Shown here: positions 9,616 to 24,441 of the stretch, one piece after another
Layout: each line of letters begins with the position of its first letter
Position numbering within the stretch: the first letter of the stretch is position 1
DNA from: a marine gamma proteobacterium HTCC2080
GTDB lineage: Bacteria; Pseudomonadota; Gammaproteobacteria; Pseudomonadales; Halieaceae
Assembly (NCBI GenBank): GCA_000169115.1
Contig: AAVV01000001.1
Coordinates: 62,001-126,000, forward strand
DNA length: 64,000 bases
Direction: 5' to 3'
Translations under genes and position numbers: made by a program
Notes under the pieces: generated by a model
What the model was told of the DNA's origin: nothing
The model's database searches: none
What the model saw: the letters and a program-made list of their open reading frames with translations, nothing else

Positions 9616-11019
9616 TCAGCGAATTGTTTTAATCCAGTCGCCAATGCGGGGTTCGCCCACGGGGTAATAGCCGTTGATCAGTCGCAGCTGATCCTCAGCA
9701 TCTGGAACCCGGGCGCTGGAAGCGAGGCTTTTTAGCGTGGCACCTCGGGGCACTTGAACGTAGTGCAGCGTGCGGCTAGGACCCTTTGCTTTTTCTTTGG
9801 GTACCAAGGGCCGGAAACTTTCAATAATGACCAAGGCATTGGCGTCACTGCCTGTGCCCTCAAAAAGAAAGCGATACTTGTGATCGAGCACGGCCAAGCG
9901 CTTCGTGCTCTCACCGGCTGTTGCCTGAGCCGTGCCGCCTTTGAGGCCAAATTGCTCGAGTTCACGTTGATCGCTTAACGCCCCTGATGCTGTGCTGGCC
10001 AAGTAATCAACGGGAGTCACCCCCGGGTCTAAGCGGGAGAGGGTGATCGCCATTGAGGCGTTGCCATCCTTTGAGGTGACGGTGACGTCTCTTGAACCTT
10101 GGGCTACCGACCAGCCTTCGGGGTAGCGGAAGGTGAAATCTAGCTTGTTGTGATAGAACCGATTGGACTCGGCTTGCGACTGCGCGCTGGCCCCGAAGAC
10201 AAGTCCCTCAACGCGATTTCGAAACACACCGGGTGCCTCGGGATTTTCCGGCTGGTCATCAAGGTCAAGGGTGTTGGCCGTCTTAATGACTGTCTGTAGG
10301 CGCAGGTCATTTCTGGGGTGGCTGGAGTATAAACCGTGGTAGGTGCCGGTGGGTTTGCCCGAGGCCTTGGCTTGAACGCGTCGGTACATTTCTTGATCTT
10401 TTAATACACCAATGACAGACAGCAGGGCATCGGCGTCATAGCCGGAGCGGTGCATGAATTCCGCGCCCGCAGCGTCGGCTTCCAGTTCCATGTCACGACC
10501 GAAGCCGCTGACAACTTCGGCGCCGTACATTTGTGCCGCGTCATAGAGATCGCCGCTGCCGGTAAGGATGTAGGCGGTGGTAGCAAGAACTGTGGAGGTC
10601 GTTTGTTGGGTCGATCGCCGGCTGTGGTGACTTTCTGTGATGTGGCCTATCTCATGGGCAATAACACCGGCCAGCTCGGCTTCAGTTTCTAGATAAGCCA
10701 ATAAACCTCGGTTCACATAAATAAAGCCTCCCGGCAGTGCAAAAGCGTTGATGTCGGGTGAGTCGAGCAAGGTAAACGTAAAAGTATCGTCGGGTCGGGA
10801 AGAGTTTGCGACCAAACGCTGTCCAATGGCGTTTATATACGCCGCGGTCTCGGGGTCGTCATAAATGCCAATGGTATCGATCAGGCGCTGGTGCTCGTCG
10901 CCTGTTACCTCAGGCACCTTAACCTGCCTGCCGCCCACGGTCACGGTAGAGGAGGACCCTCCACTGCCACCGCAAGCAGCCATCATGGAAAGCAGGGTTA
11001 TGAGTACAAGAATTTTCAT
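9616..11019 (-). CDS. M48-family metalloprotease lipoprotein
   Basis: 467 residues. The lipobox MAAC places the lipidated Cys at 16, after which comes a Gly/Ser stretch. The peptidase motif HEIGH (residues 122-126) and the downstream zinc-ligand region EADAAGAEFM identify a BepA/LoiP-like periplasmic M48 protease. After about residue 270 there is a beta-rich region, and the last 50 residues resemble a LysM-like module. Family members degrade or chaperone outer-membrane proteins. The gene starts eight bases after the preceding lipoprotein gene, so it is the probable last member of the large operon. Confidence 0.9.
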   Translation of the reverse strand: MKILVLITLLSMMAACGGSGGSSSTVTVGGRQVKVPEVTGDEHQRLIDTIGIYDDPETAAYINAIGQRLVANSSRPDDTFTFTLLDSPDINAFALPGGFIYVNRGLLAYLETEAELAGVIAHEIGHITESHHSRRSTQQTTSTVLATTAYILTGSGDLYDAAQMYGAEVVSGFGRDMELEADAAGAEFMHRSGYDADALLSVIGVLKDQEMYRRVQAKASGKPTGTYHGLYSSHPRNDLRLQTVIKTANTLDLDDQPENPEAPGVFRNRVEGLVFGASAQSQAESNRFYHNKLDFTFRYPEGWSVAQGSRDVTVTSKDGNASMAITLSRLDPGVTPVDYLASTASGALSDQRELEQFGLKGGTAQATAGESTKRLAVLDHKYRFLFEGTGSDANALVIIESFRPLVPKEKAKGPSRTLHYVQVPRGATLKSLASSARVPDAEDQLRLINGYYPVGEPRIGDWIKTIR

Positions 11020-11027
11020 GGGTCGCC

Positions 11028-11702
11028 CTACATTTTGGCGGACAAATATTTGAGCAGTTGGTCACCCAGACTGTCACATGCGGTGCCCTGCACCGGGGCA
11101 ATGATAGGTATGGGAACCACAACGGCTGGCATGTAGCTTTGACCACTAGTGTTGGCGCTAATGCGACCCACTTCAATTTCGTCCGTGAAATCCCAAATCG
11201 TGGCCTCGTAGTCGGAGGCATTGCCCCAGGTGCCAAAACCAAAGCACCCTGCTCCACCGGGACCCACCCCGCAGGTCATTGATCCTGAGCTATTGGTTTC
11301 GACCGTGGAGCCGTCAATCCAAATCATGTACTCGAGTTTCAGTTCTTCAAAGCGGTCGGCGACGCGTTGTTGAGCAAGAAGCTTGTCGATGTCATCGGTA
11401 CGTAGCGGCGCGGTGCGCGGTTCGAACCACGGGTACATCATGTTAATAAACTCAAGTTCATGTAATACGGAAATCGAGTTATCGCCCCGACGAATGTGGT
11501 CACCGATACATTCAATAAAATCGAATTCGGTTTCATAGTCCGGGGCATGCCGGCGTCCCATGATCACAACAGAGGCATCACCGATACCCTCGGTAGGCTC
11601 AAGAAAAGTCATTTCATCAACGGTGGCGTTGACGCAGCCTTGAAGTATTGAAGCCGCAACAACCAATCCGGCGATCAGGCACCTTTGCGTTATCTTACTC
11701 AT
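11028..11702 (-). CDS. Lipoprotein of unknown function (operon member)
   Basis: 224 residues from the ATG chosen here, which overlaps the upstream gene's stop by eight bases (GATGAGTAA). A longer in-frame start ten codons earlier spoils the signal peptide. The lipobox LQGC predicts lipidation at Cys23. The body contains a Gly/Cys-rich loop (CGVGPGGAGCFGFG), a WDF...EVG strand region, and a Pro/Ile-rich segment PIPIIAPVQ followed by a last cysteine. I recognise no family. Coupling to the genes on both sides indicates a part of the same envelope system. Confidence 0.75.
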   Translation of the reverse strand: MSKITQRCLIAGLVVAASILQGCVNATVDEMTFLEPTEGIGDASVVIMGRRHAPDYETEFDFIECIGDHIRRGDNSISVLHELEFINMMYPWFEPRTAPLRTDDIDKLLAQQRVADRFEELKLEYMIWIDGSTVETNSSGSMTCGVGPGGAGCFGFGTWGNASDYEATIWDFTDEIEVGRISANTSGQSYMPAVVVPIPIIAPVQGTACDSLGDQLLKYLSAKM

Positions 11703-22937: not shown

Positions 22938-22944
22938 GCCGATT

Positions 22945-24441
22945 TTATTCCTCTGTCTCAGTTGTCGACGCGGCGGTAGCCACTGGCGCTAAGCCGCGCC
23001 ATGCTACGGGTTCAAAGGACCAGACAAGGCCCTCTTGAGCAACCGGCATACCATCGGCGAATGGCGGTCGGAATCGCGTATTTTTCAAAGCGCGTACCAG
23101 TCGCCGTATAGCCTTCTCTTCTTCGACCTCAGGTTCCCGCAGTCGTTCCAAATTGGTCACTCTTCCTGTGCCCGAAATGTCAAAGCCGAGGACTAGTGTG
23201 CCATCTTCCCGCGTCTCGTGTTGAGGTAGTGGCTCACTGCCTGCGAGCAACGGTAGGGGAGTGGGTTGGCTAAACAGCTGGCTAATCTCGTGGCTACGTT
23301 CCTCTTCGGGTATTTCCTCTATCAGGCTTATAGCTTCACTGTAATACACCTGAGCGCGGTTGAATTTGCCAAACCACCAAGCCCAATCGCCCAAAGCAAC
23401 GGTATCGTCAATATTTTGCTTGGGGCCCATTCCATTAATGGTGTTGACCTCAAGAATGGCTTTTAAAACCGATTCGCCGCGACGATAGGAGTCGTTATTA
23501 AGAGGTACCAAGTTGTCGTCAGCGCTAGTAGAGGAATTTTTGCTGGGTGAAAAAGCTCGATAGCCCGCAAAGAGGTACTGAGTCTCCATCATGCCTGCCA
23601 GCGGTATCTTTAGCGCCAGCGACCGATCCCCGTAGGTATCGATAGTTTCATTGAGCGCCATTCGGTAGAGATCCCAGCTGAGCATTAATCTTCCCGCCTG
23701 AGTTTCAGGATCCCCAATTCCCAAGAGGTAAGCCTCGCGTTGCCATTGTGCTTGACGCAGCAGCGCTTGGGACGAATCTGCAGGGCTTGTCAAAGATCGG
23801 CGTTCTACGCGATAGAGATAACGCTGTCGTTCGTCGACAACCGCGAAATCACCCAGTGCCATGTGACTTAATATTTCACCTCGCAATAATGTTAGCTGTT
23901 CGGCGCTATAGAGACCTGAGTTGATGCGCGCCAGTTGAACACCGCGCTTAAACACCTCGACCGCTTCTGCATGGCGCTTAAGCTGCTGCAGAGTGGTGCC
24001 CAAACCCACCAAATGTTCTGTGAGTGCTGGGGCATAGGCGCCGCCTGCAAGCTCTGCCTGCCTAATAGCTTCGCGATATTCTTCTACCAACCTCGACTCG
24101 GGCGCTAACACTGCCGCTGGCGTTGGGGTACTGTCGAGTTGTCCACGCATATCGATAACTAAAGCCGCTGCTTCATCGGTCGCGCTGTCGTCTGTGACAG
24201 AAGTCTGGGTTTTGTCACCCGAGGGCTGACGCTCAGCATCGCCTTGCTCCAAAGGGTCTTTGGGGGTGAAGGTGCCAGTTAATGGCACGTTGGGTGCCTG
24301 CGGCGCTTCTTGTTTCAGTGGTTCGGCAGAAGCCGGTGCAGACGCGTTTAAAGGCTCCTCATTTGCCACAGCGGACGGCGTTACAAACAACGCGAGTAAC
24401 AGCAGGTATTGGTAGTGTAATGGCTTGGCATGCTGCAGCAC
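22945..24441 (-). CDS. Exported protein with TonB-C-like terminal domain, first gene of the large operon
   Basis: 498 residues starting at GTG, with a ribosome site (AGAGG) nine bases upstream. A signal peptide ends near AVA (residue 26). A disordered Ala/Pro/Glu stretch follows, then a helical TPR-like middle (LKRHAEAVEVFKRGVQLA). Residues about 395-480 resemble a TonB C-terminal domain (LGFDISGTGRVTNLE, then ALKNTRFRPPF). Unlike TonB it has no N-terminal anchor, so it should be free in the periplasm. TonB-C domains normally bind outer-membrane partners. It is seven bases from the polyserine gene. Confidence 0.78.
   Translation of the reverse strand: MLQHAKPLHYQYLLLLALFVTPSAVANEEPLNASAPASAEPLKQEAPQAPNVPLTGTFTPKDPLEQGDAERQPSGDKTQTSVTDDSATDEAAALVIDMRGQLDSTPTPAAVLAPESRLVEEYREAIRQAELAGGAYAPALTEHLVGLGTTLQQLKRHAEAVEVFKRGVQLARINSGLYSAEQLTLLRGEILSHMALGDFAVVDERQRYLYRVERRSLTSPADSSQALLRQAQWQREAYLLGIGDPETQAGRLMLSWDLYRMALNETIDTYGDRSLALKIPLAGMMETQYLFAGYRAFSPSKNSSTSADDNLVPLNNDSYRRGESVLKAILEVNTINGMGPKQNIDDTVALGDWAWWFGKFNRAQVYYSEAISLIEEIPEEERSHEISQLFSQPTPLPLLAGSEPLPQHETREDGTLVLGFDISGTGRVTNLERLREPEVEEEKAIRRLVRALKNTRFRPPFADGMPVAQEGLVWSFEPVAWRGLAPVATAASTTETEE

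Follow-up and report, generated by a model that had tools for sequence, protein, structure and literature searches.

A conserved thirteen-gene operon of Halieaceae encodes a TolQ/ExbB-type channel, paired VWA proteins and PEGA stalks of a putative trans-envelope motor

Introduction

The closest described relatives of the locus reported here come from a 2025 study in Mol Biol Evol (PMC12204202), which in its passage on this class describes TolQ-like genes that are tightly linked to heterologous pairs of TM-VWA genes and occur without tolR or exbD. The same passage gives an AF3 model of a relative, in which a pore Asp lies inside a ring of Thr residues, and proposes in silico that the channel and the paired VWA proteins form the core of a PMF-driven motor; it reports no function. 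Two further systems offer points of comparison. PorK is a repurposed, Cys-less FGE hub beside the PorLM motor (PMC12421860), and the outer-membrane component TagR activates PpkA (PMC6082577).

Here we analyse an operon in a 64,000-nucleotide stretch of DNA (the window; contig AAVV01000001.1, positions 62,001 to 126,000) from the marine gammaproteobacterium HTCC2080. The genome comprises 3.58 Mb, and its nearest named relatives are Luminiphilus, Halieaceae.

Results

Thirteen co-directional open reading frames, g1 to g13, are all present and form a real operon (Table 1). With the most plausible starts, neighbouring genes are spaced by 7, -4, 19, 11, -11, 16, -4, 3, 22, -41, -8 and 8 bases. This agrees with the original prediction, made from the DNA alone, of thirteen minus-strand genes with overlaps or short gaps; among the gene starts, those of g4 (~20498) and g5 (~18972) needed a small correction. 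Most of its assignments also held, namely one ExbB/TolQ-like channel (g7, MotA_ExbB in Pfam), two membrane-helix/coiled-coil/VWA proteins (g9 by a Pfam VWA match, g10 by an invariant DxSxS in a conserved domain), a PEGA-FGE-like protein (g5), a possible actin/Hsp70-fold cytoplasmic protein (g8, by structure prediction) and five lipoproteins including a protease (lipoboxes in g2, g3, g11, g12 and g13; Pfam M48 in g13). The TonB-C-like character of the exported protein g1 found partial support, with weak TonB_C matches in six of 15 homologues.

Table 1. Genes and cytoplasmic tail motifs of the operon (window coordinates).
Feature	Position	Strand	Description	Status
g1	22945..24441	-	exported TPR protein, weak TonB_C-like C-terminus	accessory
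g2	21729..22937	-	OM-type lipoprotein, Ser/Gly-rich linker and conserved ~40-residue tip	core
g3	20518..21732	-	OM-type lipoprotein, TolB-N/LptE/PqiC-like domain, then long helices	core
g4	18984..20498	-	cytoplasmic tail, TM, TPR-like helical periplasmic region, PEGA-like C-terminal domain	core
g5	16864..18972	-	cytoplasmic tail, TM, five PEGA, non-catalytic FGE-like domain	core
g6	16578..16874	-	small exported protein, variable	accessory
g7	15758..16561	-	MotA/TolQ/ExbB-type channel, extra N-terminal hydrophobic segment	core
g8	14514..15761	-	predicted cytoplasmic Hsp70/actin-fold protein, perhaps FHA-like C-terminal domain	usual, missing from some lineages
g9	13419..14510	-	pore helix with Asp, coiled coil, VWA	core
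g10	12398..13396	-	pore helix with Asp, coiled coil, divergent VWA	core
g11	11695..12438	-	OM-type lipoprotein, no known family	accessory
g12	11028..11702	-	OM-type lipoprotein, no known family	accessory
g13	9616..11019	-	M48 metalloprotease lipoprotein	accessory
g4 tail motif LKAAAF	20457..20474	-	cytoplasmic N-terminus, residues 9-14	
g5 tail motifs LTAGGF and LKPSGF	18880..18945	-	cytoplasmic N-terminus, residues 10-15 and 26-31	

Rfam revealed no RNA elements near the operon, and the sole Rfam match in the window was a tRNA (59624-59707, minus strand). Promoter-like sites numbered 7 versus 10.5 in shuffled sequence, and terminator-like sites 25 versus 17.3 (sd 5.2). In most same-genus loci, the operon is bordered by genes for an amidohydrolase (7868-9577 in the window) and a gamma-glutamyltranspeptidase (25430-27169). 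Genes for 4HBT-type thioesterases adjoin it in several lineages (window 24589-25404; L170:4398-5024; L172:14028-16382). A gene of this type, ybgC, sits beside tolQ; the operon-adjacent thioesterases belong to different families, and the parallel is possibly a coincidence.

We then turn to the motor core. The channel protein g7 matches PF01618 (MotA_ExbB, Pfam) at 4.8e-14, and its homologues carry GTVRG in 113 of 114 cases and AFNST in nearly all. In g9, a VWA_3 match (2.3e-8) accompanies FLD at residue 15 and DxSxS at residue 171; g10 shows FLD at residue 14 and DxSxS at residue 158, and gave no Pfam VWA match. An Asp stands at the beginning of the pore helix in each of the 243 g9/g10 homologues (234 by pattern, nine by eye), and 242 of them contain the DxSxS metal site. 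A Pfam scan of the 13 genes detected no ExbD, TolR or MotB. The genome has four other channel loci, which look like tol-pal, exbBD, ttpC-exbB2 and motAB (named partly by eye). Every one of them includes an ExbD/TolR/MotB-like gene, whose place is taken by the VWA pair in the window operon and its second copy on contig C18. When the VWA pore helix was compared with ExbD/TolR by short profiles, the score was not significant; the likeness of these helices is therefore one of position and residue, short of a demonstrated relationship.

These features are those of the class in PMC12204202, as far as its passage defines it: a TolQ-like channel gene, no adjacent tolR or exbD, and a heterologous TM-VWA pair, with conserved pore Asp and channel Thr. 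The motor idea is hence not new, its core having been published in 2025. The difference lies in the remaining parts, as the passage covers the channel and VWA proteins only and PEGA is absent from the text; the main text yielded nothing about a stalk with an FGE domain, about g8 or about the present set of lipoproteins. The PEGA-FGE stalk, g3, g2 and g8 appear not to have been described in the open-licence literature. The original claim that no named system has this set thus stands in that no characterised system matched the whole gene set, and is qualified by the earlier proposal of the channel/paired-VWA core.

Several known systems were considered for identity with the operon. Like Tol-Pal, it has a TolQ-family channel, an OM-type lipoprotein with a TolB-N-like domain (g3) and a TPR protein, as CpoB is; unlike Tol-Pal, it carries VWA domains and no TolR, TolA, TolB or Pal gene, and a tol-pal-type locus lies elsewhere in the genome, which rejects this identity. 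Zorya shares a MotA-family channel with a pore-helix partner, but PADLOC returned only a sub-significant ZorA match (0.021) and no ZorB, ZorC or ZorD; a defence-system reading had no PADLOC support. A Bat (MoxR/VWA) locus was rejected because a Pfam scan of the 13 genes turned up no AAA ATPase. The predicted lack of MoxR/Bat and ZorC/ZorD-like genes was thereby upheld and extended to ExbD (Pfam, NCBIfam and PADLOC searches of the operon genes).

To define the spread of the operon, per-gene profiles were run on loci of up to ~20 kb. All 13 genes occur in the same order in 65 loci, which encode 54 distinct g10 proteins and derive from Halieaceae and several other gammaproteobacterial families; chance is therefore excluded. 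The neighbourhood is thus strongly conserved, as opposed to scattered homologues, and the system is separate, as predicted: the genome additionally carries Tol-Pal, Ton, TtpC-ExbB2 and flagellar motor loci. In a set made up of the window's genome plus 37 relatives, 23 genomes contain g10; the same-genus loci that were fetched maintain the gene order up to the limits of their contigs. In an even draw of 370 Gammaproteobacteria, 34 had a g10 match, ~30 of them strong, and a phylum-wide draw added one genus of another class with g2-g3-g4-g5-g7-g9-g10 in order. This core (g2-g5, g7, g9 and g10) recurs in many families; g1, g6, g8 and g11-g13 are accessory, g6 giving weak profile matches in many loci. 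A search for g10 on plasmids gave no match. The channel gene g7 is relocated behind g10 in two loci, L170 and L176; no g3 was recognised in L176, where the stalk genes also seem changed.

When all neighbours of 32 varied loci were clustered, no further gene recurred beyond close relatives, and no conserved neighbour hinted at a substrate or process. The window's genome also contains a second, core-only copy on contig C18 (L038:915-8976) with g2-, g3-, g4-, g5-, ExbB-, VWA- and VWA-like genes. This copy has neither g8 nor the tail motif described below, sits on a very long branch and clusters loosely with loci from another class that lack g8. Both the core-only copy and the persistence of the core in many families despite changing flanks argue against a conserved envelope-maintenance operon with only loose connections between its parts, the products of which would not form one complex; we regard this as very improbable, even though g1 and g11-g13 come and go.

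The proteins g4 and g5 each consist of a cytoplasmic tail, one membrane helix (residues 35-53 in g4) and a periplasmic part. The periplasmic region of g4 gave TPR profile matches, and its C-terminus aligned with PEGA in hhalign (94%, E 9e-8), a comparison somewhat favoured by the choice of PEGA segments with a related pattern. g5 contains five PEGA repeats (1.5e-39) followed by an FGE-sulfatase domain (1.5e-37; both Pfam). The best PDB match of this domain was PorK/GldK (5e-16), ahead of true FGE enzymes. Catalytic FGE has two active-site Cys; no displayed g5 member has any, which indicates a catalytically dead domain, as judged from sequence.

A non-catalytic FGE fold beside a PMF-type motor is also a feature shared with the type IX PorKLMN core, and g5 would be a putative hub. 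The operon could accordingly be imagined as a motor for protein export or surface motility that operates like the type IX core, in which the dead FGE domain would be a docking hub driven by the motor beneath the outer membrane; PorK/GldK, the best solved relative of g5, is likewise Cys-less and tied to a PMF-type motor. However, Pfam and NCBIfam found no PorL/M/N or Sov-like gene in the operon, the FGE domain sits on an inner-membrane-anchored PEGA tower and not on a lipoprotein, and FGE domains are common, with g5 scoring 92 against NCBIfam GldK, far under the cut-off of 350. We consider this reading unlikely.

In three loci, g4 is fused to an N-terminal Ser/Thr kinase domain (L165:12648-15428, L169:12622-15087 and L174:4946-7408; 6e-41 to 4e-29), which in L174 retains HRD and DFG, and g5 of these and related loci has a weakly matching FHA-like N-terminal extension. 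Together with the weak FHA-like signal in the g8 C-terminus, this is what one might expect of an envelope sensor that does no work, its stalks and VWA proteins detecting envelope state and signalling to g8 or to the g4-fused kinase. The layout is comparable to that of TagQRST-PpkA-Fha of the T6SS, where TagR acts on PpkA from the outer membrane; shared features are OM-associated periplasmic parts and, in some lineages of the operon, a membrane kinase and FHA-like domains, whereas the operon has no secretion genes and an ion channel at its centre. Kinase fusions are rare and none occurs in the window's lineage, and the strict conservation of the Asp/Thr channel speaks for energised work, so that a pure sensor also seems improbable.

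The predicted structure of g8 (AF2, pLDDT 92.7) resembled DnaK in Foldseek (8.5e-14, prob 1.00), which assigns g8 to the Hsp70/actin fold on the strength of the model; a DLGGGT-type ATP-binding motif was not recognisable by eye. Its C-terminal domain had weak matches to Ki-67, YukB and EssC and is perhaps FHA-like. The cytoplasmic tails of g4 and g5 carry a motif, [IL]x[PA]xx[FY], whose pattern was picked after viewing all tails, so that the following tests are descriptive. In g5, it occurs in 77 of 78 Halieaceae tails (2.8 expected from shuffling) and, outside Halieaceae, in 16 of 18 tails from loci with g8 (1.0 expected), but in 0 of 11 from loci without g8, one of which is a truncated ORF. 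Counted by locus outside Halieaceae, the motif is present in 17/18 with g8 versus 0/11 without (Fisher p 3.5e-7, uncorrected for ancestry). The g10 tree suggests about two independent g8 contrasts: one is a loss of g8 within a group of carriers, the other a deep group that lacks g8. In the g8-less genomes that were searched, no g8 turned up at another site. This association is new here and predicts that g8 binds the g4/g5 stalk tails.

Lipoboxes of g2, g3, g11, g12 and g13 never have Asp at +2 across homologues. By the usual Lol rule, lipoproteins without Asp at this position go to the outer membrane, and we place all five there on this basis. The lipobox was found in 73/75 (g2), 91/102 (g11) and 92/97 (g12) homologues. 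g2 ends in a conserved tip, DDDVVARQxREAAxxExDPxxREKLWxEYRKY, and has a C-terminal relative in the second copy. The first domain of g3 (AF2 model, pLDDT 81.5) resembles TolB, LptE and PqiC (Foldseek, with marginal E-values; LptE 8.8e-4, TolB prob up to 1.00); sequence-based PDB profile searches with g3 and g8 gave nothing convincing. Pfam yielded nothing above chance for g11 and nothing for g12. g13 matches Peptidase_M48 (1.3e-35) and has a HEIGH motif. g1 matches TPR_12 in 12 of 15 members (best TonB_C value, 2.1e-4), and g6 has a signal-peptide-like start.

Discussion

Building on the observed gene set and order, the conserved residues, the folds predicted for g3 and g8 and the association of g8 with the tail motif, we favour, at a probability of roughly 60%, a trans-envelope, PMF-driven motor that works on outer-membrane lipoproteins through PEGA stalks and has g8 as its stalk partner in the cytoplasm. 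Its ion drive and its spanning of both membranes are what we infer from the parts. In such a motor, g7 would form a pentameric channel of the MotA/TolQ/ExbB kind, whose pore probably holds one g9 and one g10 helix in place of the ExbD/TolR dimer. Protons (or sodium) flowing past the Asp of the pore helices and the Thr ring of the channel would move the g9/g10 pair and thereby turn or pull the periplasmic coiled coils and VWA heads. The heads may act on the inner-membrane stalks, i.e. g4 with its TPR-like region and PEGA-like tip, and g5 with its PEGA tower and dead FGE docking domain. These would reach the outer-membrane lipoproteins g2 and g3, aided by g1, g11, g12 and the protease g13, while g8 would grip the stalk tails through the short motif and couple the stalk to cell state. 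As to purpose, our guess by analogy with Tol-Pal is force on the outer membrane for envelope upkeep or surface organisation.

A more specific version of the motor, which we put forward tentatively and hold somewhat less probable than not, has g8 as an Hsp70-fold clutch that holds the stalk via [IL]x[PA]xx[FY] in the g4/g5 tails, with the g4-fused kinase adding phosphorylation control in some lineages. If true, this would be a new kind of regulation for a motor of the MotA/TolQ/ExbB type.

The pore Asp and the predicted interaction of g8 with the tails make the motor directly testable. With ~30 of 370 evenly drawn Gammaproteobacteria carrying it, the system is not a one-genus curiosity, and an orphan class of ion-driven motors gains a full and bounded parts list in which its outer-membrane and cytoplasmic sides are indicated.
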